Assembly (NCBI GenBank): GCA_017458145.1 | Contig: JAFTGA010000032.1 | Location: forward strand, 1 to 43,687 | Length of the DNA stretch: 43,687 nucleotides | From: Bacteroidales bacterium | GTDB lineage: Bacteria > Bacteroidota > Bacteroidia > Bacteroidales > UBA932 | Direction: 5' to 3' | Shown here: piece after piece, positions 2,139 through 38,115 of the stretch | Layout: every line of letters starts with the position of its first letter | Position numbering within the stretch: the stretch's first letter is position 1 | Program-made: the position numbers and the translations under genes | The notes under the pieces: generated by a model | The model's input: only the letters and a program-made list of their open reading frames with translations | The model's database searches: none | What the model was told of the DNA's origin: nothing

Positions 2139-2728
2139 TCGAAACTGATCTGGATGTTCTCGAATCCCATCTGCTCCAGGACCGGCTGGAAGAATTCCCG
2201 GGCATTGGCTTCCGCCTCGTCCAGAATGCCGAGTTTGGGCAGGTCACGCAGGATTTCGCGTTCGCCCTGCCGGAGCAGGGCCTGGCGCTCCTGGTCGCTG
2301 AACCGCTGTCGGAATCCCGTCACGTCTTCGTATTCGAGGCGGATTTCCTCCGGCGGGAGGTTGATGGAAAAGACGGCGGCACGCGGCAGGACCAGCGAGA
2401 CGGAGCGCGTCCGCTCATCCACGACGATGCGGTCCGGGGAGATGCTGCCCAGATGGATGCCGGCCTTGATGTGGGCCGTGCAGGAGAAGAGGATGCGGCG
2501 GTTGCCGATCTTGAACCATTCGCCTTCGTCGCGGGCGCGGACGGCCTTGCGCACGGTGTATTCTACCGTGCCGAGTTCGTCGCTCTCGCTCAGCAGGGCC
2601 ATGCGCGCGACCAGCTGCTCCTGGAGCGAGGGCCCGCGGGAGCAGGCGGCGAGGAGCAGGAGAAGGAGGAGATTCCCGGTCAAGCCGGGAATGACGAAGC
2701 GGAGACCGGGAATGACGAAGCGTCTCAT
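2135..2728 (-). CDS. DUF4230 family lipoprotein with repeat-derived signal peptide
   Basis: 197 residues. The start ATG at 2726-2728 overlaps the stop of the DUF697 gene. The N-terminus reads M-R-R-F-V-I-P-G-L-R-F-V-I-P-G-L-T-G-N, then L(7)-A-A-C-S, so a lipobox cysteine near residue 29 follows a leucine run. The first ~19 codons are encoded by two copies of the palindromic repeat found elsewhere in the window, so the signal peptide appears to have been built or extended by repeat insertion. The mature part (about residues 35-197) is a DUF4230 domain with F-K-I-G-N-R-R-I-L-F-S-C-T-A-H-I-K-A-G-I, paralogous to the next gene. Function is unknown; the context suggests an envelope complex with the dynamin-like GTPase and the DUF697 protein. 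A later start is possible but would remove the basic n-region. Confidence 0.75.
   Translation of the reverse strand: MRRFVIPGLRFVIPGLTGNLLLLLLLAACSRGPSLQEQLVARMALLSESDELGTVEYTVRKAVRARDEGEWFKIGNRRILFSCTAHIKAGIHLGSISPDRIVVDERTRSVSLVLPRAAVFSINLPPEEIRLEYEDVTGFRQRFSDQERQALLRQGEREILRDLPKLGILDEAEANAREFFQPVLEQMGFENIQISFE
2671..2715. repeat. palindromic repeat family 1 inside a signal peptide
   Basis: Plus-strand GATTCCCGGTCAAGCCGGGAATGAC (2671-2695) is followed by a half-copy ACCGGGAATGAC (2704-2715). It is translated on the minus strand as V-I-P-G-L-R-F-V-I-P-G-L-T-G-N at the start of the DUF4230 lipoprotein. Confidence 0.85.
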
Positions 2729-3702
2729 GCGGCTGCCCCCTCCGCGGGCTCCTGCGCTTCTCCGTTGAGCCAGGCATCGAGTTTCTGTCCGGCGGCGGAC
2801 AGGCCGGCGATGGTCGTGTCCCTGGACAGGGCGAGGAAGGACTTGACGGCATCCAGCATCGCCTGTCGGCGCACCCTGGCCCCGGCCTTGCCCGCCAGGG
2901 CTTCCGCGCCTTCGCGCAGGCAGGCGAGTGTGACGTGGCCGATGCGCAGCGACAGCAGCGTGTTGGCCGTGCCGTCCGCCAGCGAGCGGGTCACGATGCC
3001 GGCCAGCGGGATCTTGGTGAGGGCGCCCAGGTGCAGCATCTCCGGGTCCACCTCCACCTTGTCGAGCGTGTCGGAGAGATAATAGCTGAACAGCGCCGTC
3101 GCGAGGATCCGGGCGTACAGTTTGCCGAGCTGGCCCCAGGTGGGCCGGTAGCCCGAGCAGCGGATCACGTCCGCAATCATCCGGCAGTTGATCACCAGCG
3201 AGGTCAGCGCATCGATCCGTCCCGTCTGGGAGACGGTCGTGACGAGGAAAACCGTCTTCGCCCACTGGCTGATGTGGCCCTGCGCCTTGTCGAAGCGGCG
3301 GTCGAGCTCGTCCTGGATGATGCTGCGCAGCTCCGCCAGATCATAAAAACTGTCCAGCCGCGCGAGCAGTTCCGCCCGGTGTGCAGAAGCCTCCTCCGCC
3401 GGCAGGTCGCCCAGGTTGTCGGCAAGCGAACGGGCGAAGCGCTTCAGCTCTTCGCGCAGCTCCGGCGAGTCCTCCGCCGCCGGGTCCACCGACAGTTTCG
3501 GAAACGGCTTTGCGAGCAGGATGCGGCAGGTCGGAAGGACCACGAGCCAGACCAGGGCCGCGGCAAGCAGCCCGTAGAAGGCCCAGGCCAGCACCGGTGA
3601 GCCGGCGGCCAGCTTGTCCCCGATCGTGATGATGTTGCCTGTAAGCAGGATCACGACGATCAGCGCCAGCGCGACGGCGAGGGAGACGAGCGGTTTCTTC
3701 AT
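2725..3702 (-). CDS. DUF697 (YcjF-like) inner-membrane protein
   Basis: 325 residues. Two transmembrane helices lie at the N-terminus (about 5-27 and 36-58). After a helical linker (about 70-140) comes a DUF697-type region with K-T-V-F-L-V-T-T-V-S-Q-T-G-R-I-D-A-L, then Y-R-P-T-W-G-Q-L-G-K-L-Y-A-R-I-L, and an Ala/Gly-rich stretch of amphipathic helices near 230-250. DUF697 proteins such as YcjF are usually paired with a GTPase (YcjX/DUF463) in Proteobacteria. Here the partner is the dynamin-like GTPase directly upstream, whose stop overlaps this start (TGATG). The likely role is membrane anchor or partner of that GTPase (inference). The C-terminus is low-complexity Ala/Glu. Confidence 0.7.
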   Translation of the reverse strand: MKKPLVSLAVALALIVVILLTGNIITIGDKLAAGSPVLAWAFYGLLAAALVWLVVLPTCRILLAKPFPKLSVDPAAEDSPELREELKRFARSLADNLGDLPAEEASAHRAELLARLDSFYDLAELRSIIQDELDRRFDKAQGHISQWAKTVFLVTTVSQTGRIDALTSLVINCRMIADVIRCSGYRPTWGQLGKLYARILATALFSYYLSDTLDKVEVDPEMLHLGALTKIPLAGIVTRSLADGTANTLLSLRIGHVTLACLREGAEALAGKAGARVRRQAMLDAVKSFLALSRDTTIAGLSAAGQKLDAWLNGEAQEPAEGAAA

Positions 3703-5480
3703 CAGATGATAATGTCTTTGAGTTGTTTCTGAAGGGCCTCCAGCGTGTCGAGCAGCGCCTCCTGCTCCGGGTGGACCATCGGGGCCAGGGCAGCCTCGAA
3801 ACGGGCGCGGATCTGCGCCAGGTAGCCGTCCTGCATCCGCCCGATCTCCGCCGTGAGCATCCGCTTGAGATTCTGGATGGTACGGTTGTCCTGGTCACCG
3901 TAGAAATAGTGCTCCATATTGGACACCGCCTCCCGGACGGTCTCAGGCTTGAGGTGGAAGAGCGACGGGCGCATAAAGCGCTTCACCTTGTCCTCTGGAA
4001 TGTTCTGTTCGCACTGTGCGCGGACTTCCTCCAGGGCCGGAAGCGGCTCCAGAGGCGTGCCCAGGCGGGCGCTCACGGCGTCCAGGCTGTCGCGCATCTT
4101 GTCGCCGAACAGGCGGAAAAGCCGCCCGGTGAGCTTGTCGTCCACGTCGAAAAGGAAGGATGCCAGGATCTCCTTCAGGAGCGCCAGGCACTCCTTGCCC
4201 GACATCGACTTGTTGACCATGCTCTTGGCCAGCGTCTTGAACAGGGAGCGGTCGGCGTCTTCCGAGATGTTGTTGATCAGGGAATCGATGTCGGCCGGAG
4301 AGAGCGCCAGGGCCTTGTCCAGGCCGTCGATGTGCTCCTGGAGCGTCAGGCGGTCGCTGCGGCTGGCGGAAAGCGCCTGCGTTCGCATCCAGATTTTCTT
4401 CACGAGATCATCGCGCAGCTTGTCCGTGCGCTCCAGGCAACGCTCCAGCCGCTGGCCGCCGATCCGGGTGGTGATTTTCTCGTAGAGGCGGTCCTCCACC
4501 GCTTCGAAGTCGTGCCAGGCCTGCTCCAGTTCCGCCTCGCAGCCCGGTCGGGCGACACCCTTGAGATAGTCCGTGACCATCCCGAGGTTCAGGCAGCTGA
4601 CGTAGTCCGGCTCGATGTTGAACCCCTTGTGCTTGATCTCCTCGTATTCGCTCCGGCTCTGGCGCTCCACCTCGGCGCGCCGCGCCCCGGGATCCTGCCA
4701 CCAGGAAGCATCGAAGACATTGTGGATCAGATAGACGGGCACGGACCCGTTGTACTCCCGGAGTTTGTCCAGGTACTCGTTGGAGGTCACGTTGAAGGCC
4801 GACACCGAGCTGTGGACGAACAGGATGAGGTCCACCCGTTTGGACATGGCGTCGTACAGCGCGCTCGAGAGGTTGATCCGGTTGCCGTCGAAGCCCGGCA
4901 TGTCCGCCAGGAAAATCCTGCCGCCGTCCGCGCCGCGGAGCATCTTGCCGGCGGGCGCGGTGATTGCCGTGATAATGGAGCTGTCCTGCCGGTTGTAGGA
5001 CGGAGCGATATACGTGTCGATGTTCTCGTCGCTGAGCGGATAGGACTCGCGGGTCAGGTGCTCGCGCAGCTCGGCGTCGTCGCTCACGATGCCCCGGAGC
5101 TTGTCGATGATCAGGTCCAGGTCCTTTTCCTTGCGGGATTCGTCCTTGGAGGAATAGATCGAGATGGTGGGCTCGCCCCCCTCCTCCAGTCCGGAGATGA
5201 TCGTCGGGCGCAGGGTGCACTCCAGCTTGTCCGTCGGGCTCACATAGCGGTGCGCGAGCAGGTTCACGAGCGTGGACTTGCCGGACTTGACGGGGCCGAC
5301 CACCAGCATGATGAACGAGCCGTGGCGGTACTCCATCGAGCGGCGCTGCAGGCGCAGGAGCCCGGCGGCGATCTCCTCGTCGCCGCCCAGACGCGGCGTG
5401 TACGCTTCGCACAGCTCCGTCAGCTGTGCGGAGATGGCATCCAGCTTCTTTTCGTTGACACTCGCCATGGAAGCCGGCAT
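3702..5480 (-). CDS. dynamin-like GTPase
   Basis: 592 residues. The GTPase domain has a P-loop G-P-V-K-S-G-K-S-T (62-70), a conserved Thr region near 90-95, and a G3 motif D-M-P-G-F-D-G (193-199). A segment V-P-V-Y-L-I-H-N-V-F-D near 255 stands where the G4 N/TKxD motif is expected, here degenerate. The C-terminal ~300 residues are predicted mostly helical, as in the stalk of bacterial dynamin-like proteins, but no transmembrane or obvious paddle segment is visible. Membrane contact is probably through the co-encoded DUF697 protein. An alternative start at M5 is equally plausible. The first codon overlaps the stop of the upstream lipoprotein (TGATG), so translation is coupled. Bacterial dynamins tubulate or fuse membranes using GTP; the specific task here is unknown. 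Confidence 0.8.
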   Translation of the reverse strand: MPASMASVNEKKLDAISAQLTELCEAYTPRLGGDEEIAAGLLRLQRRSMEYRHGSFIMLVVGPVKSGKSTLVNLLAHRYVSPTDKLECTLRPTIISGLEEGGEPTISIYSSKDESRKEKDLDLIIDKLRGIVSDDAELREHLTRESYPLSDENIDTYIAPSYNRQDSSIITAITAPAGKMLRGADGGRIFLADMPGFDGNRINLSSALYDAMSKRVDLILFVHSSVSAFNVTSNEYLDKLREYNGSVPVYLIHNVFDASWWQDPGARRAEVERQSRSEYEEIKHKGFNIEPDYVSCLNLGMVTDYLKGVARPGCEAELEQAWHDFEAVEDRLYEKITTRIGGQRLERCLERTDKLRDDLVKKIWMRTQALSASRSDRLTLQEHIDGLDKALALSPADIDSLINNISEDADRSLFKTLAKSMVNKSMSGKECLALLKEILASFLFDVDDKLTGRLFRLFGDKMRDSLDAVSARLGTPLEPLPALEEVRAQCEQNIPEDKVKRFMRPSLFHLKPETVREAVSNMEHYFYGDQDNRTIQNLKRMLTAEIGRMQDGYLAQIRARFEAALAPMVHPEQEALLDTLEALQKQLKDIII

Positions 5481-6205: not shown

Positions 6206-6228
6206 GGAAATCTATCGTTATTTAAACG

Positions 6229-6236
6229 CAAAGATA
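6229..6236 (-). promoter_or_regulatory. -7 box for the five-gene dynamin operon
   Basis: The minus strand reads TATCTTTG 24 nt before the ATG at 6205. It is divergent from the TATCTTTG of the HAD gene, and only 19 nt separate the two boxes. Confidence 0.65.
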
Positions 6237-6255
6237 GCAAATTCAGAAATAAACG

Positions 6256-6263: not shown

Positions 6264-6285
6264 CAGACCGCAAACCAAACAGAAA

Positions 6286-7444: not shown

Positions 7445-7472
7445 AGAAGCCGGGGCTCCGGCTTCTTTTTTT
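7445..7472 (+). terminator. bidirectional rho-independent terminator
   Basis: AGAAGCCGG (7445-7453), loop GGCT, CCGGCTTCT (7458-7466), then a T run to 7472. The reverse strand also ends in T-rich sequence (TTCTTTTG), so it can serve the convergent dap operon, whose stop codon (7471-7473) overlaps the T run. Confidence 0.85.
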
Positions 7473-9441
7473 AGTTCCGGCTTGCGATGACCTCGGCCAG
7501 CAACTTGATGCCGGCCTCCATCCGGGAGGCGTCGAGGAAGGAGAAGTTGAGCCGCATCGTGTTGCGGTGGCTGCCGTCCACGAAGAAGAAGGAGCCCGCC
7601 ACGTAGGCGACGCCTGCGGAGAGCGCCCGGTCGTAGAGCGCCACGGTATCGAAGCCCTCCGGGAGCGTCAGGAAGAGGAACAATCCCCCTTCGGGATGCG
7701 TCCAGGATACGCCCTGCGGCATATATTTCTCCAGCAGGGAGAGCATCCGGTCCCGCTTGGCGCGGTATAGCGCGATGCTCTTCTGCAAGTTGGCGTCGAG
7801 CGCGCCGCTGCCCATGAACTCCGCGGCGATGTACTGGTCCAGGACCGGCGGGCAGAGGTCCAGCGACTGCTTGCAAACATAGATCTGGTCCAGCAACGCC
7901 TCGGGACCGAGGATCCAGCCGAGCCGGAAACCGGGGGCGAAAATCTTGGAGAAACTGCCCAGGTGCAGGGTCCGCTCCGGCGCCAGCGAATAGATCGTGG
8001 GCACCGGCTCCCCGCTGTAGCGCAGTTCGCGGTATGGGCTGTCCTCCACGATGAGGAAATCGTGTTTGCGCGCGAGCGCCACCAGCGCCTGCCGCTCCGG
8101 CAGCGTCATCGTCTCTCCGCTCGGATTCTGGAAGTCCGGGATCACGTAGCAGAACTTGGCCGGACGGCTGAAATCGAACGCATCCAGCGTCCGCACGTCG
8201 GCGCGGTAGGCCTTGAAGGACTGCAGGGCGCCGAGGTAGGTCGGGCTGGTGGTCAGGATGACATCGCCCGGGTCGGCCAGCACGCGGGTGCAGACATCGA
8301 TCCCCTGCTGGGAGGACGTCGTGATCTGGACCTTCTCCACCGGCACGCCGTAACGCTGCGCAATCACTTGCCGGAGCTCGGGCACCCCCTGCGTGGCCCC
8401 GTACTGGAGGGCCTTGGCGCCTTGTTTTTCGAGCACCTGTGCGCTGATGCGACGGATATCGTCGAGCGGGAACGTGGCTGCGTCGGGATAGCCGCCCGCG
8501 AAAGAATAGATGGATGCGAGATCGACTTTCTTGAAGATCTCACGCACCGGGGAACGCATGAAAGAGCCCACGTCCGCGGAGAAAAACTGCTGATAATCAG
8601 GGATGTCTATCTCCTCGGCCGGACCGGTCAGATAAACGTCCGTGAAACCGCTCCCGTCCGGCAACGGCCGGAACTCCACCGACAGCCGGTCGATCCGCGC
8701 CTGAATGTTGTACTGCACGAGATCCCGGGTCAAGCCCGGAATGACGCCCGAGGCGGCAAGAGAGGCGTGCGCAGGCGTTGTGGAGGCCGAAAGGAATGCG
8801 GCTATCGCGGCCGCGGTCATCCCGGTGCCGCAGGCGAGGGTTTCCCCTTCCACGCCCTTCTCGAAGGTCCGGACGCGGAGTGTCCCGTCGGGATCGACCG
8901 ACACGAAATTGGCATTGGCGCCGACCGGCGCGAAAAGCGGATCCCGGCGCGCGGTGCGCCCCTCCGTCTCCACGTCCACGGCCTCCGCGTCCGGCACGAA
9001 GCGCACGAAATGGCGCGTCCCCGTGTCCAGGACCCAGCCGTCCAGCGCGTGGCGGAACTCCCGCACGTCGATCATCCGCAGGCGCACGGTCTTGCGGCCC
9101 CCCTCGCGGGAGAGGATTTCGCCGGTGTGCAGCCCGTCGGCCGCAGCGAAGCGGTACACCCGCCCGTCGGCCGGCGTGATGCCCAGCGCGTCTGCGAACG
9201 CTACGATGCAGCGTCCGCCGTTGCCGCACATCATCCCGCCGGAGCCGTCGGAATTGTAATACTCCATCCGGAAATCCAGCCCGTCGCCGCCCGCGGTCAA
9301 TATCATCAGCCCGTCGGTCCCGTACCGGGCGCAGAGCGCGGCGATACGCTCCGGCGTGCGGCAGGCGGAGACATCTTCAGACCGGCCGTCCAGCACGACG
9401 AAGTCGTTGCCGGCGCCGGAATATTTGTGAAGCACGGCCAT
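7471..9441 (-). CDS. dapF: fused diaminopimelate epimerase (DapF) - PLP aminotransferase
   Basis: 656 residues in one uninterrupted frame. Residues 1-~280 are DapF: the active-site cysteines are C72 (M-C-G-N-G-G-R-C) and C204 (A-C-G-T-G-M), and the domain ends with D-V-Y-L-T-G-P-A. Residues ~281-656 are a fold-type I aminotransferase of the 2-aminoadipate/MocR-like group: N439 (Q-N-P-S-G), D467 (V-E-D-S-P-Y) and the PLP lysine K499 (G-S-F-S-K). The aminotransferase N-terminal arm (Y-Q-Q-F-F-S-A-D-V) lies before the first possible internal start M295, so a true fusion is more likely than two proteins. In the dap operon the aminotransferase probably does the N-succinyl-LL-DAP aminotransferase (DapC) step (inference). 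A palindromic repeat adds about 10 residues near 232-242 of the DapF part. The start overlaps the dapD stop (TGATG). Confidence 0.85.
   Translation of the reverse strand: MAVLHKYSGAGNDFVVLDGRSEDVSACRTPERIAALCARYGTDGLMILTAGGDGLDFRMEYYNSDGSGGMMCGNGGRCIVAFADALGITPADGRVYRFAAADGLHTGEILSREGGRKTVRLRMIDVREFRHALDGWVLDTGTRHFVRFVPDAEAVDVETEGRTARRDPLFAPVGANANFVSVDPDGTLRVRTFEKGVEGETLACGTGMTAAAIAAFLSASTTPAHASLAASGVIPGLTRDLVQYNIQARIDRLSVEFRPLPDGSGFTDVYLTGPAEEIDIPDYQQFFSADVGSFMRSPVREIFKKVDLASIYSFAGGYPDAATFPLDDIRRISAQVLEKQGAKALQYGATQGVPELRQVIAQRYGVPVEKVQITTSSQQGIDVCTRVLADPGDVILTTSPTYLGALQSFKAYRADVRTLDAFDFSRPAKFCYVIPDFQNPSGETMTLPERQALVALARKHDFLIVEDSPYRELRYSGEPVPTIYSLAPERTLHLGSFSKIFAPGFRLGWILGPEALLDQIYVCKQSLDLCPPVLDQYIAAEFMGSGALDANLQKSIALYRAKRDRMLSLLEKYMPQGVSWTHPEGGLFLFLTLPEGFDTVALYDRALSAGVAYVAGSFFFVDGSHRNTMRLNFSFLDASRMEAGIKLLAEVIASRN
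8721..8745. repeat. palindromic repeat family 1 inside dapF
   Basis: GATCCCGGGTCAAGCCCGGAATGAC is read on the minus strand as V-I-P-G-L-T-R-D-L in the DapF C-terminal domain. It sits between the helix after C204 and the next strand, where DapF proteins normally have a short loop. The frame is kept. Confidence 0.85.
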
Positions 9442-10214
9442 CAGCGAAGCATATCCTCCAGCGTGACGGAGCCGGCGGTCTTCTCGTCGCGGTATTTCAC
9501 GATCACCGGGCAATAGAGCGCCACGCCGCTGTCCGCGCCGGGGCCCCGCCGCAGCGGCTTGCTGCCGCTCACGACCACGGCACCCTTCGGCACGACCACG
9601 CGCCCGTCCGCATTGCGCGGCACGAACTCGCCTGTCGTGGCGTCGAACAAGGCCGTGGAAGCCGTGATGACGACGCCGGAGGCGATTACCGCCCCCTCCT
9701 GCACGATCGTGCCCTCGTAGATGCCGCAGTTGCCGCCCACGAAGGCACCGTCCTCGATGATGGTCGGCAGGGCTCCCGCCGGCTCCAGCACGCCGCCGAT
9801 CTGCGTGGAGGCGGAGATGTGGATATTGCGCCCGACCTGGGCGCAGGAGCCGATGGTCACGTGGCTGTCCACCATCGTGCCCTCCCCCACGTACGTGCCC
9901 ACATTGATGTAGGCCGGAGGCATCACGATGGCGCCGGGAGCCACATAGGCACCGCGCCGGATGCTCGTGCCGCCCGGCACGATGCGCACACCGTCCTCCG
10001 CACGGAACTTCCGCACGGGAAAGGTGTCCTTGTCGAAGAAGGAGAACTGCCCCTGGGACATATCCGTGAAGGCGCCGAGCCGGAACCCGGCCAGGATCAC
10101 TTCCTTGACCCACTTGTTGACCTGCCAGACACCGTCCACCTTCTCGGCGACGCGCAACTGTCCGGCCTCCAGGGCCGCCATCACTTCGTTGAATTTCTCT
10201 ATCGTTACTTCCAT
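9441..10214 (-). CDS. dapD: tetrahydrodipicolinate N-succinyltransferase
   Basis: 257 residues. It is a left-handed beta-helix acyltransferase: hexapeptide-type repeats run from about residue 85 to 190 (G-G-T-S-I-R-R-G-A-Y-V-A-P-G-A, M-P-P-A-Y-I-N-V-G-T-Y-V, M-V-D-S-H-V-T-I-G-S-C-A-Q-V-G). The segment G-G-V-L-E-P and the late V-V-V-S-G-S-K-P-L are typical of DapD. It transfers succinyl from succinyl-CoA to tetrahydrodipicolinate in the succinylase branch of DAP synthesis, in the cytoplasm. It overlaps dapA by 10 nt and dapF by one base. Its presence argues that this organism uses succinylated intermediates rather than only the DapL route common in Bacteroides. Confidence 0.9.
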   Translation of the reverse strand: MEVTIEKFNEVMAALEAGQLRVAEKVDGVWQVNKWVKEVILAGFRLGAFTDMSQGQFSFFDKDTFPVRKFRAEDGVRIVPGGTSIRRGAYVAPGAIVMPPAYINVGTYVGEGTMVDSHVTIGSCAQVGRNIHISASTQIGGVLEPAGALPTIIEDGAFVGGNCGIYEGTIVQEGAVIASGVVITASTALFDATTGEFVPRNADGRVVVPKGAVVVSGSKPLRRGPGADSGVALYCPVIVKYRDEKTAGSVTLEDMLR

Positions 10215-14952: not shown

Positions 14953-16260
14953 TTATACGCGTTCAATATGGGCACCGAGCGCATTGAGACGGCTCTCGAT
15001 GTCTTCGTAGCCGCGGTCGATCTGCTCGATGTTGTCAATGGTGGAAGTGCCCTTGGCGGACATCGCCGCCAGGAGCATCGCGATACCGGCACGGATATCC
15101 GGGGACGTCATCCGGCCCGCGCGGAGGCTGATCTTGTGGTCGTGGCCGATCACCACGGCGCGGTGCGGGTCGCACAGGATGATCTGCGCGCCCATATCGA
15201 TCAGCTTGTCCACGAAGAACAGGCGGCTCTCGAACATCTTCTGGTGGATCAGCACGCTGCCCTTGCACTGCGTGGCCACGACCAGCAGCACGCTCAGCAG
15301 GTCCGGGGTCATGCCCGGCCAGGGGGCGTCGGCGATGGTCATGATGGAGCCGTCGATGAAGGATTCGATTTCGTAACTGCGCTGGGCGGGGATATAGATA
15401 TCGTCGCCGCGCTGCTCCAGTTTCACGCCCAGGCGGCGGAAGCACTCCGGGATGATGCCCAGGTTGGCCCAGGAGACGTCCTTGATGGTCAGTTCGCTCT
15501 GCGTGATCGCGGCCATTCCGATGAAGGATCCGACCTCGATCATGTCCGGCAGGATGCGGTGCTCCGCCCCGTGCAGCGTCTTCACGCCGCGGATGGTGAG
15601 CAGGTTGGAGCCGATACCCTCGATCTGCGCGCCCATCGCCGTGAGCAGGCGGCAGAGCTGCTGCACATACGGCTCGCAGGCGGCGTTGTAGATGGTGGTC
15701 GTGCCCTCGGCGAGGGTCGCGGCCATGATGATGTTGGCCGTGCCCGTGACGGAGGCCTCGTCCAGCAGCATGTAGCAGCCCTTCATCGAACGGCCCGAGG
15801 AGAGGTTGTAGGCCCGCTTGGCCGTGTCATAGGCGCATTTGGCGCCCAGGCGCATGAAGCCCTCGATGTGCGTGTCCACCCGCCGCCGGCCGATCTTGTC
15901 GCCGCCCGGCTTGGGGAAGAACGCGCTGCCGAAACGGGCCAGCAGCGGGCCCACCACGAGCACGGAGCCGCGCAGCCGGGCGCATTTCGCGACGAAGTCG
16001 GCGCTGCGGATGTAGAACTCGTTGACGTGGTTGGCGGTGAAGGTATAGACCCCCTTGGCGCAGCGCTCAACGCCCACGCCCATTCCGCGCAGCAGCTCGA
16101 TGAGGTTCTTGACATCCAGGATCTCGGGGATGTTGCTGATCGTGACCGGCTCTGCCGTGAGGAGGACGGCGCTGATCACCTCCAGGGCCTCGTTCTTCGC
16201 GCCCTGGGGCAGGATCTCGCCGTGCAGGCGGTGTCCGCCTTCGATAACGAAACTGCTCAT
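14953..16260 (-). CDS. murA: UDP-GlcNAc 1-carboxyvinyltransferase
   Basis: 435 residues. It is an EPSP-synthase-like two-domain enzyme; K22 lies in Q-G-A-K-N-E-A-L. The active-site loop reads P-G-G-D-K-I-G-R-R-R (118-127), with Asp121 at the position of the E. coli catalytic Cys115. It transfers enolpyruvate from PEP to UDP-GlcNAc, the first committed step of peptidoglycan synthesis. Asp at this site is known from other lineages and makes the enzyme insensitive to fosfomycin. It overlaps murB by 4 nt (ATGA) and lies 5 nt before thrA. Confidence 0.93.
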   Translation of the reverse strand: MSSFVIEGGHRLHGEILPQGAKNEALEVISAVLLTAEPVTISNIPEILDVKNLIELLRGMGVGVERCAKGVYTFTANHVNEFYIRSADFVAKCARLRGSVLVVGPLLARFGSAFFPKPGGDKIGRRRVDTHIEGFMRLGAKCAYDTAKRAYNLSSGRSMKGCYMLLDEASVTGTANIIMAATLAEGTTTIYNAACEPYVQQLCRLLTAMGAQIEGIGSNLLTIRGVKTLHGAEHRILPDMIEVGSFIGMAAITQSELTIKDVSWANLGIIPECFRRLGVKLEQRGDDIYIPAQRSYEIESFIDGSIMTIADAPWPGMTPDLLSVLLVVATQCKGSVLIHQKMFESRLFFVDKLIDMGAQIILCDPHRAVVIGHDHKISLRAGRMTSPDIRAGIAMLLAAMSAKGTSTIDNIEQIDRGYEDIESRLNALGAHIERV

Positions 16261-17321
16261 ATATGGTCTACTTCCGGGTGCAGGGTGACGCCGAAACGCG
16301 CCTGCACCCCGTTGATGATTCTCTGCTCCAGCGCAAGGACCTCCTGCGGAGTGGCCGTGCCGCTGGCATTGACGAGCACGAGCGGCTGCTTGTCATAGAC
16401 GGCCGCGCCGCCCTCCGTCGCGCCTTTCAGGCCGCACTGGTCGATCATCCAGGCGGCCGGGACCTTGACCGTGCCGTCCGGCAGGTCGTAATGCGGCGCA
16501 CTCCCGTCTGGAGAAATCCGCGCGAAATCTTCCCGGCTCACGACCGGGTTCTTGAAGAAACTGCCGGCGCTGCCTATCTCTTCCGGATCAGGGAGTTTCG
16601 CCCGCCGGATGCGGATGATGGCCTCGCGCACCTGCTGCGGGGTGAGAGGGCCGATCGGGTCGGCCATGACGGGGTTCGGGACGGTCGAACCGTCCTTCCC
16701 GGCTTGTCCGGGAATCCCGAGCGCTTCGCGGACACCCTTGTAGTCCAGGCGCGGGCTGTATTTTCGGCTCATGCGCAGCAGCACGCTCGTGACCACATAA
16801 CGGCCTTTGTTTTCCGGCTGCTTGAAAATGGAATCCCGATAGCCGTAGCGGCACTCCTCGCGGGAGAACTTGACTTTCCGGCGCTCCTGCAAGTCGAAGC
16901 ATACCACCCCGCTGACGAGATCCTTCATCTCCACGCCGTACGCGCCGATGTTCTGCACGGCCGCCGCCCCCACCTCGCCCGGAATGAGCGAAAGGTTCTC
17001 CGCGCCCCAGAGACCGTGGCGGCAGGTCTCGGCCACGAAATGGTCCCAGACCACTCCGGCGCCGACCATCACCGGCACATCCTCGAAGCCCATGTCCACG
17101 TACTTGATAAACTCGATGTTGGAATGCAGGACCGTGCCCGGGAAGTCTTGGGTGAAGAGGAGGTTGCTCCCCTCCCCGATATGCAGCAGCGGCTTCGGGA
17201 GGCGGTCGAAATTGAGCCCTTCGAGCTCCTTCACCGTCTCATACTCGACATAGCACGCGCAGGACACCTTCATCCGGAAAGTGTTCTGCGCGGACAGGTC
17301 GTAGTTCAGCTGGATCCTCAC
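16257..17321 (-). CDS. murB: UDP-N-acetylenolpyruvoylglucosamine reductase (type I)
   Basis: 354 residues. The start is GTG at 17319-17321 (overlapping the aspS stop as GTGA); it gives the family N-terminus [14 protein letters not shown]. The FAD-binding domain shows G-E-G-S-N-L-L-F, then [17 protein letters not shown]. The catalytic serine lies in [10 protein letters not shown] (usually [10 protein letters not shown]), and a Glu sits in the C-terminal H-P-E-V. It reduces the MurA product to UDP-MurNAc with NADPH. About 20 extra residues (around G-I-P-G-Q-A-G-K-D, near 208) coincide with a palindromic repeat in frame. Confidence 0.92.
16696..16714. repeat. palindromic repeat family 1 variant inside murB
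   Basis: TTCCCGG-CTTGT-CCGGGAA, a perfect 7-bp palindrome with a 5-nt loop. It is related to the core seen at 2671 but has CTTGT in place of CTTGACC. It is translated as G-I-P-G-Q-A-G-K within MurB. Confidence 0.7.
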
Positions 17322-21250: not shown

Positions 21251-21299
21251 CTGATTCGGAGCGAAGCGACCGGGGGAGTTTGAGGGGAACGCCCCTCAA
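21251..21299. repeat. GC-rich repeat family 2, intergenic copy
   Basis: The sequence GGAGCGAAGCGAC, a G run, then TTGAGGGG-AACG-CCCCTCAA (perfect 8-bp hairpin). It matches the right inverted-repeat end of the element in rsmA (28470-28516) and a copy in yfhO (36305-36366). It is followed at 21309-21336 by a separate perfect 12-bp palindrome (GGACTAAGCTCC-GTCC-GGAGCTTAGTCC) that overlaps the stop of the EF-G gene. Confidence 0.7.
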
Positions 21300-28149: not shown

Positions 28150-29253
28150 ATGGAAGTCCGCGCAAAAAAGGCCCTCGGACAACATTTTCTGTGCGATTTG
28201 ACGATTGCACAAAAAATCGTTGACGCTTTGTCTCCTTCGTCGACAAAGCAGGAGACCCCCCTGCACCCCCTTGGGGGGACGGGGGGCGTTCCCCCCGAAA
28301 CCCCCTGCGTCACTCCACGCCGAGACACCCCGGATCCGCAGACGGAGGAAGGTACTGTCTCGCCGGACCGTGGCCGCCCGTGGTCTCGTGAACGGGAGGG
28401 GCCCGCGCCGTCAGGCGTGGGAGGGATGAGCGAAGCGAAGTCCGGAGAGGCAGCACCCTCGGCTGACAGCGACCGGAGCGAAGCGACGCAGGGGGCTCGG
28501 GGGGAACGCCCCCCGTATTCCGAAGGAGACGGACATCGCGTTCCACGCGATGTCCTGGAGATCGGACCGGGAATGGGGGTATTGACTCAGTATCTGCTTC
28601 AGCGACATGATATTGACCTGAAGCTGGTGGAACTGGACGGCGAATCGGTGGACTACCTGCTGACCCACTTCCCGGGCATGCAGGGCCGCCTCTACCAGGC
28701 CGACTACCTGCGCCTCGACATCCACCGCCTTTTCCCCGGCCCCTACCGCGTCATCGGCAACTTCCCCTACAACATCTCCTCCCAGATCTTCTTCAAGATC
28801 CTGGACGACAAGGACCGCATCCCGGAAGTGGTCTGCATGATCCAGAAGGAGGTCGCCGAACGCATCGCCGAACAGCCCGGCAGCAAGACCTACGGCATCC
28901 TCTCGGTGCTGCTCCAGGCGTGGTATGACATCGAATACCTGTTCACCGTGGACTCCGGCGCCTTTGCCCCGCCGCCCAAGGTCCAGTCCGCCGTGATCCG
29001 CCTGCGGCGCAACGGCCGCACCGACCTCGGCTGCGACGAGAAGCTTTTCAAGACCGTCGTGAAAACGGCTTTCAACCAGCGCCGGAAGACTCTGCGCAAC
29101 GCCCTCAAGCCTCTCCTGCCGGAGGGATTCGACGCCTCTGACCCGGTCTTCGACCTGCGCGCCGAGCGCCTCGGCGTCGAAGACTTCGTGGCGCTATTAA
29201 AAATCATCCCAGCGGATCACCTTGACCGGCCCGTCGGGAAGCTTTTCGTATAA
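28150..29253 (+). CDS. rsmA: 16S rRNA dimethyladenosine transferase with large in-frame insertion
   Basis: 367 residues, about 100 longer than usual. The N-terminus K-K-A-L-G-Q-H-F-L (7-14) and T-I-A-Q-K-I-V are followed by a Pro/Gly/Glu-rich segment (about 29-133), and only then by SAM motif I D-V-L-E-I-G-P-G-M-G (134-143). Motif IV N-F-P-Y-N-I-S-S and the C-terminal domain are intact. The insertion is encoded by a repeat element with 32-bp inverted ends (28280-28516) and flanking repeats, kept open without a stop. It sits before the first beta strand, where a surface loop might tolerate it. The enzyme dimethylates two adenines in 16S helix 45. The last ~14 codons extend past the family's usual end into the convergent lipoprotein gene. 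Confidence 0.88.
   Translation: MEVRAKKALGQHFLCDLTIAQKIVDALSPSSTKQETPLHPLGGTGGVPPETPCVTPRRDTPDPQTEEGTVSPDRGRPWSREREGPAPSGVGGMSEAKSGEAAPSADSDRSEATQGARGERPPYSEGDGHRVPRDVLEIGPGMGVLTQYLLQRHDIDLKLVELDGESVDYLLTHFPGMQGRLYQADYLRLDIHRLFPGPYRVIGNFPYNISSQIFFKILDDKDRIPEVVCMIQKEVAERIAEQPGSKTYGILSVLLQAWYDIEYLFTVDSGAFAPPPKVQSAVIRLRRNGRTDLGCDEKLFKTVVKTAFNQRRKTLRNALKPLLPEGFDASDPVFDLRAERLGVEDFVALLKIIPADHLDRPVGKLFV
28280..28516. repeat. MITE-like element with inverted ends inside rsmA
   Basis: The left end GGGGGGCGTTCCCCCCGA..CCCCCTGCGTC (28281-28311) and the right end GACGCAGGGGGCTCGGGGGGAACGCCCCCC (28485-28514) are near-perfect inverted repeats about 170 bp apart. The span 28280-28516 is 237 bp, exactly 79 codons. 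Its right part (GCGAAGCGAAGTCCGG ... GGAGCGAAGCGAC) recurs at 21251-21299 and 36305-36366. Confidence 0.75.
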
Positions 29254-29742: not shown

Positions 29743-31911
29743 CTAATAAACATCAAAAATCCTTATATATACCCGACGGCGTGTGCCGTTAGGGACAACA
29801 ATATCCGGAAGAGATAGCTGGCATGTATCTCCGCTGCCAAAATAAAAACATGAATAAGATGTTGGTGTCGGCGAGTCAAAGACGGCACCAACTTCAAGAT
29901 TACCAGCGCAGTCTATACAACTTGCATATAAATCTAATGTAATATTCGTTATCGGGGTCCCTGGCGTCGCGGACAGGCTATATCCGCGGTAGACAGGATA
30001 CCCTGCTTGAAATCCATTTTCTATGCTGTTAAAAATATCACAAGAAATCAGATATTCTTCTTGGCCATTTATTGTACCCCGGACATCAAGAATAACGTCT
30101 TCCAAAGGATACGAAGAACTATTGATTATTGTGAAATCCAGCCCGGCCGTATTATCCAATGTGTTTTGAATGTTGGCAAAATATGCCCGGGAAAGTGCTT
30201 GATCTGCTTTGACCAAACCATACCCAACTTCGATGTTTTTGTATTCTTCCGGGTATCTTCCATCACTGGAATAACTGTATCCTGACAGTTTTGCACATCC
30301 CTGCTCAATGGAACGTCTAACCAAATCTTGAGGCAAGTCCGGATACTCTGACAGGATCAATGCTGCTATTCCAGCGACATGGGGTGCCGACGCCGATGTG
30401 CCGTCAAACCATCTTGTGTATCCTTTATCCGAATAATCATATGATTTATTAAGGATGCTTAGACGTTGTTCATTAATTCCTTGCGATCCTGACAAATCGG
30501 TTGTTGAAATAAAAACACCAGGAGCGACGACATCCAGTGTAGGGCCATAATTGCTACTCCAATTTTCATTGTCTGGAGTTGTAAGATTTTTGCGCTTCCC
30601 ATTAATCGATATCGCGCCGACCGCCATCACATTATCAAGATATCCTGGATATGAAACTGAGCCATTATCAGCATTTTCTGTATTGCCCGAGCTGCAAATA
30701 ACAACACAACCTTTTCCATCACGTCCAAGACTTGTGGCATTATTTATTGCTGTGGTCAACGACCCACTTGGTGTGGGTCCGCCCCAGGAACAATTAATCA
30801 CATCCGCTCCATGTGTCCTTGCCCAGTTAAACCCAAAAACGGCGGCATTGACATCAACAATTTCTCGGCCATAAGTAGAAGAGTAATATGCGACACGGAT
30901 TGGCATAATTTTGCAATTCGGAGCAACGCCACTTATTCCTATCCCATTATTTTTAATTGCTCCAGCAACGCCAGCAACAGCGGTTCCATGACTTGCGCCG
31001 CTTTCTTGCGCCGCTCCGCCTGGCGTCGTATTAGATATTGCATCAAATCCAGCAACCAGATTTCCAGACAAATCTGGGTGAGTCAACTCCACACCAGAAT
31101 CCAATATGGCAATAATTATATCATTATCTCCTTCCGTAATGCTCCATGCCGATTCAATGTTGATATCGGGCCCTGAATTAAAATATTGACCCGTGTTCTT
31201 AAGCCCCCACTGATCGGAATAATAGGTATCAGTCGAAGCTATTCCGCCAAACCAAACAAACGCTGGAGAAGTAAAAACAAAAAGGCCAGATTCATAAAAC
31301 ATAGCAGACAATCGAACTGCTCCTGCTTCGTTCTGCTTCTGTAACCGAACATCATATACCCCGTCATCAAAGTCGTCTCGTCGAACAACAGAACAGTCAA
31401 ACTTCGCCGCCATTTCTACCAATCTCGAAAGATCTGCTTTACTCTTTAACTGTACTGAAAATTCATCCGTAACTGCTGTTAAGCAGGTATTATCATCGCC
31501 ATAAATAGGAGAAACATACTTGATATCTGAACGGGTTAGGGTCTCTTTTATCAGATCATATTTGAGATTCGGGTCAAGTGATTGAAGAATAAGGAAATTG
31601 TAAGGATCGTCCTCTATGTCTATATTAGAGCCATTTGGATTCCAAATCTTGAGCAATGAAACACTGTTCAGTTCGGCTATATAATCTCTTCGCGCCTGAG
31701 CATCATTAAAACATACCAAGAATAAATCCCGCTGCTCCTTGAGGAAAACCTTTGTATCAAAATAGTAATAGTAAATATCAGCAGTATTTTGGCTCATATT
31801 AAGTAATTCCTCACCCTGCTCCCCCGCTTCCTTGCTATTCGAATAATCAGCCAAGTCAAACTGAGAACAGCTGACCATCAATAGAAGCAATAATAAAAAT
31901 TTCCGTCCCAT
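29743..31911 (-). CDS. subtilisin-like (S8) serine protease lipoprotein
   Basis: 722 residues from the ATG at 31911 (M-G-R-K-F-L-L-L-L-L-L-M-V-S-C, lipobox Cys15); an ATG 5 codons upstream is less suitable. An N-terminal prodomain-like region (about 40-210) precedes the S8 domain: Asp271 (A-I-L-D-S-G-V-E), His308 (S-H-G-T-A-V-A-G), Asn in C-S-S-G-N and Ser506 (D-G-T-S-A-S-A-P-H-V-A-G). A C-terminal beta domain of about 130 residues follows. It is probably anchored to the outer membrane and degrades extracellular protein. The gene is clearly AT-richer than its neighbours, which suggests later acquisition. Confidence 0.88.
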   Translation of the reverse strand: MGRKFLLLLLLMVSCSQFDLADYSNSKEAGEQGEELLNMSQNTADIYYYYFDTKVFLKEQRDLFLVCFNDAQARRDYIAELNSVSLLKIWNPNGSNIDIEDDPYNFLILQSLDPNLKYDLIKETLTRSDIKYVSPIYGDDNTCLTAVTDEFSVQLKSKADLSRLVEMAAKFDCSVVRRDDFDDGVYDVRLQKQNEAGAVRLSAMFYESGLFVFTSPAFVWFGGIASTDTYYSDQWGLKNTGQYFNSGPDINIESAWSITEGDNDIIIAILDSGVELTHPDLSGNLVAGFDAISNTTPGGAAQESGASHGTAVAGVAGAIKNNGIGISGVAPNCKIMPIRVAYYSSTYGREIVDVNAAVFGFNWARTHGADVINCSWGGPTPSGSLTTAINNATSLGRDGKGCVVICSSGNTENADNGSVSYPGYLDNVMAVGAISINGKRKNLTTPDNENWSSNYGPTLDVVAPGVFISTTDLSGSQGINEQRLSILNKSYDYSDKGYTRWFDGTSASAPHVAGIAALILSEYPDLPQDLVRRSIEQGCAKLSGYSYSSDGRYPEEYKNIEVGYGLVKADQALSRAYFANIQNTLDNTAGLDFTIINSSSYPLEDVILDVRGTINGQEEYLISCDIFNSIENGFQAGYPVYRGYSLSATPGTPITNITLDLYASCIDCAGNLEVGAVFDSPTPTSYSCFYFGSGDTCQLSLPDIVVPNGTRRRVYIRIFDVY

Positions 31912-34174: not shown

Positions 34175-34243
34175 ATACTTTTTTGTTCTATAACGGCACA
34201 GCCGTCAAAAAACTGCCTGTCGTCGGATTGGGTTCTTCAAATT

Positions 34244-34278
34244 GTCGCAGAAGGTCCAGTCCTTGGACCGTCTGCGAC
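34244..34278 (-). terminator. hairpin downstream of the yfhO operon
   Basis: GTCGCAGA-AGGTCCA, short loop, TGGACC-G-TCTGCGAC: a stem of about 14 bp with one bulge, located 23 nt after the YfhO stop. The minus-strand tail is AATTTG, only weakly T-rich. The remaining bases 34175-34243 hold no feature I can support. Confidence 0.5.
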
Positions 34279-34300
34279 ACCCCGGAAAGAGAGATATACC

Positions 34301-36865
34301 TCAAGGCTTCCGGCGGCGAAGGGCCGGGAGGGCGGCACCGAGGATGGCGCCGAGCGCGGCGAGAAGCAGCAGGATCGAGGTGGCGCGGGAGATCGCTTCG
34401 CCCCGGCGGTAGGACGGCGGGTCGAAACGCATCACCAGGTCGTGCTCGCCGGCAGGCACCTGCGCGGCGCGAAGCAGCGTACCTTCCAGCTCGATCGGGA
34501 GTTCTTCGCCCGTGTCCGCCACCTTCAGGGTCCAGCCCACCGGGTAATAAACCTCGCTGAAGACCAGCCGTGCGGCCTCGGACGTGCTGTAGCGGTAGCG
34601 GAGCTCATTGGGGGCGTAGGCGGTCAGCTGGACGGACCGAGGTTCCGGGTCAAGTCCGGAATCTCCTGCAAACCCGGCATTTCCTTTCGCGTAAGGGTAG
34701 CGCAGCGGGGCGGCCTCTCCGTCCAGGATGATGTAGCGGCAGTTCATCTGTGCCAGGCCCGGCAGGTACGGCAGGGCGGCCTCGGCCTCCTCGACGGTCC
34801 TGGCCTCGCCCACGGCCTTATAAATTCGGTTGATCTCGCCCGCGAGGGTGCTCTCGATGAATTCCTGGTAGCGCTGGAGCTTGGCGGGCGAATAGCCGCC
34901 GATGTTCTTGTGCCAGTAGGAGGGATGGGAGTCGTTGAATACATTGACCGTCAGGTCGAGGACGCGGAACGACGGATCCGTGTCGGAGAGGATCATCTCG
35001 TCCGCGGGGCGCTTGTTGAACTGGCTCTGGAAAGAGCGTGGAGAGACGAAGTCATCGGCACCCAGGTAGCGTTTTCCCACGACGCCGAGGTCCAGCAGGA
35101 CCAGCAGCGCGATCAGTCCGGATGCGGCCAGACGGCGGCCCTGTCCCATTTCGGGCTGCGTGGCAAAGGTTTTCGGAGCGCTCTTCGGTACGGAGGTCCC
35201 CCACCACAGCAGCCCGAACGCGGCACCGATCAGCGCCAGCGAGCGCAGCGCGTCCATCACCAGCAGGTAGCGCCGGTCGGCCGCAAGCGCGTCCACCAGC
35301 ACCTCCGGCTGGCCGGCATCCGCGCTCCCGCTGAACGTCCCGGCGATACCGGGAAACAGCGCACAGAGCAGGCAGAAGCCGCCGGTGATGGCTGCGGCGA
35401 TCCAGCCCTTCTCCCGGAAGAAAGCCGCGGCACCCGGCTGCTTCACGATGCGGTCCAGCGCCAGGAACCCCAGCACCGGCAGGGTGAACTGCAGCACGAC
35501 GAGCGCCATCGAGACCGTGCGGAACTTGTTGTACAGCGGTGCAACGTTATAAAAGAACTTCGTGAACGCCATGAAATGGCTGCCCAGCGCGAGCAGCACA
35601 GCGAGAAGCGTTCCCGCCACGATCCACCATTTCTCCTTGCCCTGGAACGCGAACAGGCCCAGGACGAAAAGGAAAATGGTGATGGCGCCCATATACATCG
35701 GCCCGGCCGTGAAGGGCTGCGGGCCCCAGTAGAGCGGGAGATTCTTCGCCACCTCCTTGAGGTTGGGCTGCCCGGCCCGCTTAAGCAGGTCGTAGGTCTC
35801 CGAGTGCTTCGGATTGACCGCCCCGGCGGACGAGCCGCCGTTGAAATTGGGAATCAGCAGATTGGGAAGTTCCTCCCAGCCGTAGGACCAGGCGGTGGCG
35901 TAGTCGAGGTCGAGCCCCTTGGCTCCCCCGCCTCCCTCGGAGGCCGCCGTGCTGCCGCCGCGCATCGAGTACGGGGTGTATTCCATCGTGGGGAGGAGCT
36001 TGGTGGCGTTGGTGGCAATGCCGGCAAGGCCGAGGACGAGCAGCAGCGCCGAGGCGGTAAAGAAACGGCCCCAGGGGCGAGGTTCCGGGTCAAGCCCGGA
36101 ATGACTGCCTGCCGTCATTCCGGCCGAAGAGCCGGAATCTTTGCGCAGCAGGTTGACGGCCAGCACGATGACATAGATCAGGATCAGCAGCGCCAGATAG
36201 TAGGTGATCTGCGGGTGGTTGGCCTTGACCTGAAAACTCAGCGCCAGGCCGAAGAGCGCCGCCCCGAGGACCGTTCCGGGAAGCCAGTTTCTCGCCCGGC
36301 CTTTGAGCAAAGCGAAGTCTGCATCAGCAGACCGGTCCTGGGGCCCGGGGGAGATGCCCCCGTATAAGGCTTGCCTGTAGGTAAAGATCAGCGCGGCGAG
36401 CACCCACGGCAGGAAGGCCAGGGCCTGCATCTTGGTGTTGTGGCCGACCTGGATGATCTGCAGGTTGTAGGAGCAGAAGGTCACGGCGATGGCCCCGCCC
36501 ACGGCGACCAGCGGGTGGATGCCGAGGGCGAGCATCAGCAGCCAGGCGCCGAGCAGCGAGAGGAACAGGTAGGTGGCCGGACGGCGGCCGGTCAGCAGGA
36601 AGTCGTAGACCGCCTGCGTCCAGTCTCCCTTGGTGGAGGCGTGGATCGTGGCCGTCGGCATCCCGCCGAACATCGACTCCGTCCACGCCGTCTGGTCGTC
36701 GGGATGGGCGGCGTTCCATTCCATCATCTCGTGCGACATGCCCTGCCAGCCGGAGATGTCGCTCTGGTTGACGATCTTGCCCGTCAGGACCTGCGGGACA
36801 TAGGCGTATGCGAGGACGAGCAGGCCGACCACGATGCCGGCGTACTGGAGAATTTTCTTGGTCAT
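34301..36865 (-). CDS. YfhO family membrane protein with three repeat insertions
   Basis: 854 residues, about 12-13 predicted transmembrane helices and a C-terminal periplasmic domain (about 590-820). YfhO-type features are N-Q-S-D-I-S-G-W-Q-G-M near 33, F-G-G-M-P-T near 66, N-A-T-K-L-L-P-T-M-E-Y-T and N-F-N-G-G-S-S. YfhO proteins belong to the GT-C glycosyltransferase-like superfamily and are linked to lipoteichoic acid or lipid-linked sugar modification; the substrate is unknown here. Three segments look foreign: residues ~166-190 (P-G-P-Q-D-R-S-A-D-A), ~243-263 (S-H-S-G-L-D-P-E-P-R) and ~725-741 (D-S-G-L-D-P-E-P-R). Each coincides with a palindromic repeat. It overlaps the glycosyltransferase gene by 4 nt. 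Confidence 0.85.
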   Translation of the reverse strand: MTKKILQYAGIVVGLLVLAYAYVPQVLTGKIVNQSDISGWQGMSHEMMEWNAAHPDDQTAWTESMFGGMPTATIHASTKGDWTQAVYDFLLTGRRPATYLFLSLLGAWLLMLALGIHPLVAVGGAIAVTFCSYNLQIIQVGHNTKMQALAFLPWVLAALIFTYRQALYGGISPGPQDRSADADFALLKGRARNWLPGTVLGAALFGLALSFQVKANHPQITYYLALLILIYVIVLAVNLLRKDSGSSAGMTAGSHSGLDPEPRPWGRFFTASALLLVLGLAGIATNATKLLPTMEYTPYSMRGGSTAASEGGGGAKGLDLDYATAWSYGWEELPNLLIPNFNGGSSAGAVNPKHSETYDLLKRAGQPNLKEVAKNLPLYWGPQPFTAGPMYMGAITIFLFVLGLFAFQGKEKWWIVAGTLLAVLLALGSHFMAFTKFFYNVAPLYNKFRTVSMALVVLQFTLPVLGFLALDRIVKQPGAAAFFREKGWIAAAITGGFCLLCALFPGIAGTFSGSADAGQPEVLVDALAADRRYLLVMDALRSLALIGAAFGLLWWGTSVPKSAPKTFATQPEMGQGRRLAASGLIALLVLLDLGVVGKRYLGADDFVSPRSFQSQFNKRPADEMILSDTDPSFRVLDLTVNVFNDSHPSYWHKNIGGYSPAKLQRYQEFIESTLAGEINRIYKAVGEARTVEEAEAALPYLPGLAQMNCRYIILDGEAAPLRYPYAKGNAGFAGDSGLDPEPRSVQLTAYAPNELRYRYSTSEAARLVFSEVYYPVGWTLKVADTGEELPIELEGTLLRAAQVPAGEHDLVMRFDPPSYRRGEAISRATSILLLLAALGAILGAALPALRRRKP
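34641..34680. repeat. palindromic repeat family 1, yfhO copy a
   Basis: GGTTCCGGGTCAAGTCCGGAATC plus a half-copy AACCCGGCAT, read as D-S-G-L-D-P-E-P-R in the periplasmic domain of YfhO. Confidence 0.8.
36081..36140. repeat. palindromic repeat family 1, yfhO copy b (double)
   Basis: GGTTCCGGGTCAAGCCCGGAATGAC is followed by an inverted copy GTCATTCCGGCC-GAA-GAGCCGGAATC. It is read as H-S-G-L-D-P-E-P-R and flanking G-S-S-A-G-M-T in a loop between two YfhO helices. Confidence 0.85.
36305..36366. repeat. GC-rich repeat family 2, yfhO copy
   Basis: GAGCAAAGCGAAGTCTGCATC followed by GGGGCCCGGGGGAGATGCCCCCGTAT. Both halves resemble the rsmA element (28429-28520). It encodes an extra loop of about 25 residues in YfhO without breaking the frame. 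Confidence 0.7.
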
Positions 36866-38115
36866 GGCAGTATCTGAATCAGCTGCGCCGTGAGGGCGCG
36901 GCGGGTGTATTTCTCAATGCCGGCGGTCGCAGGATGCTCCGCGTCCAGGAAGGCGAGCAATTCGCCGGTCTTGTCCCAGTCGAACATCTCCCCCGCCCCG
37001 GCGTCGCGCAGCACCTGCGCGGCGGCGCCGTCCTCCTGGCCGATGCCCAGCACGGGGCGCCGGGCGGCCAGGTATTCGAAGATCTTGCCGGGCAGGACCT
37101 TGGTGTATTCGGGCTCCCGGCGCAGCGGCAGCAGCAGAATGTCGGCGGCGCGCTGTTCGCGGACCGTCTCGTCGTGGGGCAGGTAGCCCAGCTCGACAAG
37201 ATGGGCGCCCAGGCCGCGCGCGCGGATGGCGTCCGTGACGGCGGCGTCCACCTTGCCGACAAGGCGGATTTGCAGGCGCTCCCGGAAGGCAGGATCGGCC
37301 CCGCAGCGCTTCGCCAGGGCATCCCACAGGTTCAGCGGATTGCCGTCGGCGGCGAAGAGTCCGGTATGCACGAGCTTGAAGGTGCGAGGTTCCGGGTCAA
37401 GCTCGGAATGACCAAAATCATCCTCGTCGAAACCGTTGGTGATGAGCACGACGGGTGTATGGGTCCTGGCCTGGAAATCGGCGGCGACGGGCGGGCTCAC
37501 GCTGATCACGGTGTCGGCCTCGTCGAGCACGGACTGCTCCAGCCGGCGGTGCCGCCGGTCGGCCGCGGCGGTCAGGCCGAGGTGCTTGTAGTAGAACATC
37601 TCCGTCCACGGATCCCGGAAATCCGCGATCCAATGCACCCCGAGGGCCCTTTTCAGCCCCCGGCCGATGAGGTGTACCGACTGGGGCGGGCCCGTGGTCA
37701 CCACGGCATCCACCGGGTGCTCCCGGAGGTATTTCTTCAGATAGCGCACCGAGGGGCGCACCCAGCCGATGCGCGGATCGGGAATGAAACAGTTGCCCCG
37801 GATCCACAGCGAGAGGCGCTGCTTCCAGCTTTTCTTCTGCGCGTTGACGGGGTTGATTTCCTGCCCCGCCTTGCCGCCCGTCAGGCGGCGGTAAATCTCA
37901 TAGGGCTCGGTGATGCGGGTCTTGATGACCTCCGCGCAGGCGGGGATGTCCGAGAGCAGGCTCTCGTCACGCGCGAGCTGTTCGGGATTCTCCGGCGTAT
38001 AGACCACCGGCTGCCAGCCGGACTGGGGCAGGTATTTGCTGAACTTCACCCAGCGCTGGACCCCCGATCCGCCGGTCGGGGGCCAGTAATAGGTGATGAT
38101 CAGCAGCCGTTTCAC
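36862..38115 (-). CDS. glycosyltransferase (GT4-like)
   Basis: 417 residues. GT-B fold: the N-terminal domain begins I-I-T-Y-Y-W-P-P-T-G-G-S-G-V-Q-R-W with a glycine-rich loop; I-A-D-F-R-D-P-W-T-E lies in the middle, and the C-terminal sugar-nucleotide site includes V-L-P-G-K-I-F-E-Y-L-A-A-R-R-P-V-L. It is probably cytoplasmic and makes a surface glycan or glycolipid, perhaps with the YfhO protein encoded next. About 10 residues (G-H-S-E-L-D-P-E-P-R) after T-N-G-F-D-E-D-D-F come from a palindromic repeat in frame. Its ends overlap both neighbours by 4 nt. Confidence 0.88.
   Translation of the reverse strand: MKRLLIITYYWPPTGGSGVQRWVKFSKYLPQSGWQPVVYTPENPEQLARDESLLSDIPACAEVIKTRITEPYEIYRRLTGGKAGQEINPVNAQKKSWKQRLSLWIRGNCFIPDPRIGWVRPSVRYLKKYLREHPVDAVVTTGPPQSVHLIGRGLKRALGVHWIADFRDPWTEMFYYKHLGLTAAADRRHRRLEQSVLDEADTVISVSPPVAADFQARTHTPVVLITNGFDEDDFGHSELDPEPRTFKLVHTGLFAADGNPLNLWDALAKRCGADPAFRERLQIRLVGKVDAAVTDAIRARGLGAHLVELGYLPHDETVREQRAADILLLPLRREPEYTKVLPGKIFEYLAARRPVLGIGQEDGAAAQVLRDAGAGEMFDWDKTGELLAFLDAEHPATAGIEKYTRRALTAQLIQILP
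37388..37412. repeat. palindromic repeat family 1 inside the glycosyltransferase gene
   Basis: GGTTCCGGGTCAAGCTCGGAATGACC, read as G-H-S-E-L-D-P-E-P-R just before the first strand of the C-terminal domain. Confidence 0.85.

Follow-up and report, generated by a model that had tools for sequence, protein, structure and literature searches.

The question raised by this locus is how a short palindromic sequence comes to lie both between genes and, in frame, inside conserved genes of a Bacteroidales bacterium. The DNA analysed (the window) is a stretch of 43,687 nucleotides from a metagenome-assembled genome (MAG) of 2,182,661 bases in 64 contigs. The host genus is probably Cryptobacteroides, given that matches to its DapF-aminotransferase protein come from Bacteroidales and Bacteroidia MAGs, mostly from ruminants, and that some of these are Candidatus Cryptobacteroides. 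A search of the window with a 23-nt core, allowing up to three mismatches, recovers six copies (starts at 1278, 2673, 8723, 34643, 36083 and 37390; Table 1), and 100 shuffles of the window yield none. A sequence-only reading had located the core between and inside genes; both settings are confirmed, with its positions lying 2 to 8 bases upstream of these starts, and the variant that it noted in murB is present in the opposite orientation to the other window copies. Translation shows that the frame stays open through the element in the window host genes, which were identified by Pfam (the YfhO-like gene below the curated cut-off). The dapF copy sits in a loop of DapF and the DUF4230 copy in a signal peptide outside the domain. 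Next to the DUF4230-gene copy its tag-side half is repeated over 21 nt (about 2697-2716), and the tag is missing from the copy at 34643, which has GGAATCTC where others have GGAATGAC.

Table 1. Repeat copies and their host genes in the window; the strand of a copy runs from tag to tail.
Feature	Position	Strand	Evidence or remark
Intergenic copy	1274..1301	-	core search and alignment
DUF4230 lipoprotein gene	2135..2728	-	Pfam PF14014; inferred start at 2728 (ATG preceding MRRFVIPGL)
Copy in signal peptide of DUF4230 lipoprotein	2669..2696	-	core search, translation, G008 alignment
DapF and aminotransferase, one ORF	7471..9447	-	Pfam PF01678, PF00155; start at 9447 inferred
Copy in variable DapF loop, read VIPGLTRDL	8719..8746	-	core search, translation, loop comparison
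MurB	16257..17321	-	Pfam PF02873, PF01565; start approximate
Variant copy in MurB, stem TTCCCGG/CCGGGAA	16692..16716	+	within 57-nt insertion relative to G008
YfhO-like membrane protein	34301..36865	-	Pfam PF09586, below curated cut-off
Degenerate tagless copy in YfhO-like gene	34639..34666	-	core search, translation
Copy in YfhO-like gene, read SHSGLDPEPR	36079..36106	-	54-nt insertion relative to G008, including partner hairpin
Partner hairpin CGTC-ATTCCGGC-CGAAGA-GCCGGAAT	36113..36142	+	tag faces copy at 36079 (head-to-head dimer)
Glycosyltransferase family 4 protein	36862..38115	-	Pfam PF13439
Copy in glycosyltransferase linker, read HSELDPEPR	37386..37413	-	core search, translation

Three other features of the window were recorded. 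The DapF-aminotransferase ORF has no stop between its domains, and none of 30 relatives' DapF ORFs measured exceeds 400 aa; the ORF may be a real fusion or the product of a small assembly indel. A second GC-rich interspersed repeat containing GGGGGAACGCCCC, with partly inverted arms, occurs at 21257-21295, 28269-28304 and 28474-28526, and the segments at 40602-40921 and 43304-43623 are 79% alike, apparently through duplication of a gene segment.

Aligned from tag to tail, the copies of the whole genome read (C/A)GTC, ATTCCGGG, CTTGA, CCCGGAA(T/C) and CTCC, so that the repeat can be written CGTC-ATTCCGGG-CTTGA-CCCGGAAT-CTCC, a unit of 28-29 nt with an 8-bp stem. The genome-wide core search proposed by the sequence-only reading gives 79 copies with up to three mismatches (45 forward and 34 reverse, 27 of them identical), and the reversed control finds none in the same genome. 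Judged by the base adjoining GTC, the tag is CGTC in 44 of the 79 and AGTC in 20, stems are of 8 bp and in some copies 9 bp, loops are of 5 nt, and the tail consensus is CTCC, not CCA. An opposite hairpin faces the tag within 90 nt in 7/79 copies by a script that counts only tag-facing pairs; an eighth pair flagged by it, at 8723, was judged to be chance. When the stem arms were left free and only the AT and the loop were fixed, the pattern matched in 110 of 300 genus genomes, and its reversed control gave a single match. Among the 150 matches listed, the arms are equal in 141 and unequal in nine; pairing extends over the whole arm in 114, with one mismatch in 20 and worse in seven, and at least 13 different fully paired stems occur. 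The hairpin is thus preserved while the stem sequence varies, and the stems covary. Two genomes from other families of the order (G112 and G147) hold 27 and 37 core matches, so the repeat class extends beyond the genus; those listed belong to the TTGCGGG/CCCGCAA stem subtype, besides one TTTCGGG and one TTGTGGG.

A coding frame runs through 37 of the 79 copies, 34 of them by a custom codon-model script, not a standard gene caller, and three by inspection of ORFs. Four of the six reading frames of the repeat are open (RHSGLDPEP, VIPGLTRNL, EVPGQARND and RFRVKPGMT) and the other two contain TGA, in agreement with the earlier claim of open frames on both strands of the element. These frames are used by 22, five, nine and one of the 37 copies, respectively, with C5:69253 counted in its corrected orientation; one copy, before PheS, probably lies upstream of the true start, and the DUF4230 signal-peptide copy is an additional N-terminal case outside the 37. 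The host proteins include two adjacent RND pumps, AtpG, a UvrA, Fmt, RecQ, a MiaB-type protein, RimM, two ECF sigma factors with the copy between regions 2 and 4, a carbon-nitrogen hydrolase, MetH, ResB, and MFS and ABC proteins, and 29 of 30 host ORFs scanned have a Pfam match. A single ORF at L091 258-2777 joins LptF/LptG and methionyl-tRNA formyltransferase domains. Of 24 copy-adjoining ORFs (at least 100 codons, with a stop no more than 12 nt ahead of the first core base and no more than 32 nt beyond it), 22 have Pfam matches and 19 reach to within 15 positions of the profile end, the three that fall short matching Acyl_transf_1, FUR and, weakly, a hydrolase. No clearly truncated gene was therefore seen beside the copies in this set when judged by Pfam profile ends.

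Twelve sites of the genome, some outside the 37, were aligned with a relative of 81-86% DNA identity (G008). By eye, the relative has no such hairpin at ten of the 12 and a hairpin with a different stem at two, in the first RND pump and in the UvrA linker. In an eight-site alignment, three sites, the only ones of the 12 to do so, are single in-frame insertions, of 54 nt in the YfhO-like gene (copy 36083), 57 nt in murB and 33 nt in the second RND pump outside the window, and five, among them the other RND site, are not single clean gaps. All three lengths are divisible by three and, with the frames through 37/79 copies, they bear out the proposal that the repeat inserts in frame as Rickettsia elements do. 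Clean gaps at the genes named beforehand were found for murB and the YfhO copy at 36083 and not for dapF, the glycosyltransferase or the copy at 34643, and in the DUF4230 signal peptide the two genomes differ by 15+3 nt. In dapF and the glycosyltransferase the corresponding stretch of the relative is a variable linker of different sequence; divergent linkers were also seen at 34643, C3:3815, the sigma factor and AtpG. Against solved structures, the carbon-nitrogen hydrolase copy and its partner hairpin form an insertion of about 18 residues, and the AtpG copy falls within a stretch where the solved chain has gaps. At the first RND pump site (L135; G008 C31, about 29860-29970), a CGTC hairpin with a 9-bp stem follows 18-nt tandem units.

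Two of the protein sites carry hairpins in several relatives. DapF loops were read in the genome itself and in 67 of 80 loci (68 in all; 13 of 81 DapF regions gave no loop), and under a strict rule a tagged hairpin is present in six: the genome itself, L150, L158, L196, L204 and L207. Their stems differ and both orientations are represented, and on a tree whose bootstrap had not settled they amount to six changes, five of them forced by well-supported branches. Seven further DapF loops (L146, L151, L181, L184, L187, L203 and L206) contain, by eye, another CGTC-like in-frame repeat, GAGCGAAGCGAAGGA or GAGCCTGTCGAAGGA, read as HSERSEES, HPERSEG or HPEPVEG, and are excluded from the count of six. 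The UvrA linker was read in 69 loci, of which seven were dropped from the tree, leaving 62. The genome itself, L270, L271 and L337 have a hairpin at a common position with different stems, and together with the hairpin-free L330 they form a group of five with support of 98. Between these four hairpins, three stem pairs have changed on both sides, and those of the genome itself, L270 and L271 each have one non-Watson-Crick stem pair. These stems would fit compensatory change as well as a hairpin having taken the place of another; replacement is favoured because the UvrA copy of the genome has the loop variant GCAAG, which is found in six of its other copies. A different repeat, read as SFASLGMTKD, occupies the linker in L273, L274 and L275.

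These observations are probably best explained if the repeat is a CGTC-tagged REP, a hairpin element without mobility of its own that became numerous in a gut genome of Cryptobacteroides type and whose intragenic copies would be in-frame survivors. Copies would land in many places, and a copy would be lost when it shifted the frame, introduced a stop or fell in a structured core. The survivors would then lie between genes, beside stop codons, or, where the frame is kept, in loops, linkers and signal peptides. In-frame copies may be tolerable because four of the six frames are open. In the weakest part of the scheme, the hairpin would be moved as single-stranded DNA by a Y1 (HUH) enzyme acting in trans. 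Of 91 genus genomes, 69 contain a Y1 transposase gene, and repeat copies occur in 36 of these 69 and in two of the 22 without one (Fisher P=3.5e-4, ignoring phylogeny and MAG completeness). The Y1 search over 32 loci (three from the genome itself and 29 others from the genus) found no regularly linked transposase: the repeat adjoins none of the three, and a family hairpin lies within 200 nt at one of the 32. A script flagged five of these loci for hairpins, of which only two are family-like, L233 (within 200 nt) and L234 (about 1.3 kb away). The Y1 ORF at L032 seemed to start in a repeat end, but its DNA shows that it does not; on either side of the Y1 gene there (about 1200-1235 and 2325-2350) is a hairpin on AACCTTCGGA, unlike the CGTC repeat.

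The tag-side half of the repeat is reiterated in six coding cases, with units of 21, 21, 21, 24, 18 and 21 nt, and in three intergenic cases, with units of 31, 17 and 22 nt. All six coding units are divisible by three (P=0.0014, in a set gathered by eye), excluding a half-repeat pair 29 nt apart at C54:20299 whose flanks mismatch and whose inclusion would add an exception among the coding cases. A stronger proposal, which we put forward only tentatively, is that CGTC hairpins are still moving in Cryptobacteroides, driven in trans by the unlinked Y1 genes. Existing hairpin sites and the same loops would serve as landing pads, and at a given position, as in the UvrA linker and the RND pump, an older stem would give way to a new stem subtype. 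The tag-side half repeats would expand in units divisible by three, and linkers would be continually rewritten.

The opposite possibility, that the CGTC system has ceased to move, that the copies are its old relics and that differences between species reflect loss and decay, appears unlikely. It would accord with the near absence of the repeat beside Y1 genes (none in the genome itself and one of 32 loci in the genus), with the 53 of 91 genus genomes examined that lack any copy by the 23-nt core, and with the confinement of the common UvrA linker site to one clade, and extinction is among the options proposed for the CGTC system in the part of Di Nocera, De Gregorio and Rocco 2013 available to us (PMC3733652). 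Relics of that age are difficult to reconcile with 27 identical cores in a single genome, single insertions relative to G008 and six separate placements in the DapF loop.

The location of the extragenic copies bears on a second alternative, namely that the repeats are regulatory hairpins under selection (terminators, mRNA stabilisers or protein-binding sites) and the intragenic ones mere overlaps. Many copies outside genes do lie a few bases from a stop codon, and stem pairing is maintained. This reading is nonetheless very improbable, since 37/79 copies have an open frame running through them, a setting in which a terminator would do harm, and copies are gained and lost between relatives. DNA uptake signals, short sequences enriched for transformation, might also reach high copy number on both strands, in and outside genes, and can be set aside as highly improbable, because an uptake signal keeps its sequence whereas here at least 13 paired stems, among the free-stem matches listed, alternate around a fixed tag and loop.

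A CGTC-tagged REP multiplied in this genome is therefore retained as the preferred explanation. Palindromic insertion within proteins is best known from Rickettsia, and here it is common and apparently recent in a genus of gut Bacteroidales, where its hosts include ATP synthase, a UvrA, RecQ, tRNA formyltransferase and efflux pumps, and many predicted proteins carry repeat-derived residues. Hundreds of related genomes offer a view of which protein sites accept insertions and of the changes that a hairpin undergoes at one position, and for a CGTC class without a known mobiliser the co-occurring, unlinked Y1 genes are a testable candidate.

The repeat fits the definition of the already described CGTC-tagged REP superfamily except in the tail. 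In the available parts of Di Nocera, De Gregorio and Rocco 2013 (PMC3733652), CGTC repeats are described from five phyla including Bacteroidetes, with tag variants TGTC and CCTC, stems of 8-9 bp starting with AT, loops of 4-5 nt, an unpaired tail that is mostly CCA (most units fit, not all), dimers mostly head to head, and no linked transposase; intragenic units are reported, most units being intergenic. The present repeat shares the CGTC tag with variants, the 8-bp stem starting with AT and the 5-nt loop of family 2, and in some copies the 9-bp stem of families 3 and 4, as well as intragenic copies and the lack of a regularly linked transposase at the Y1 loci searched; a few of its copies also have a tag-facing partner. 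It differs in its CTCC tail, its Cryptobacteroides host and the 37/79 copies that are intragenic. Those parts of the paper mention neither the recurrence in loops nor the turnover of stems at fixed sites, and as far as the literature searches show both are new. Among the matches listed, no literature on Cryptobacteroides repeats was found, judged by titles and the beginnings of abstracts, and the titles listed for the sequence words of the repeat were unrelated.

Similarities to other systems are more partial. The available parts of PMC8266576 and PMC6006769 deal with TnpA-REP, and the present repeat resembles the GTAG REPs with RAYT/TnpA-REP described there in its small hairpin, 4-nt tag, dimers and high copy number, and in the presence of Y1 genes in the genus. 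It differs from the GTAG REP and REPtron in that its tag is not GTAG and it is not a regular neighbour of the Y1 genes. Neisseria dRS3, equated with CGTC-1 in the parts of PMC3733652 available, is likewise an interspersed CGTC hairpin but is a family with a 4-nt loop whose elements lie mostly in large clusters. The likeness to Rickettsia palindromic elements that the sequence-only reading had drawn is supported, although the class is not new, the CGTC superfamily as presented in the same parts of that paper already including Bacteroidetes repeats and two families equated with Rickettsia RPE-6 and RPE-4. Compared by description only, and with the longer RPE-1 left aside, RPE-4 and RPE-6 differ from the present repeat in host phylum and in stems, and they share with it the feature from which the question arose, CGTC hairpins lying in frame within conserved genes (PMC3733652).
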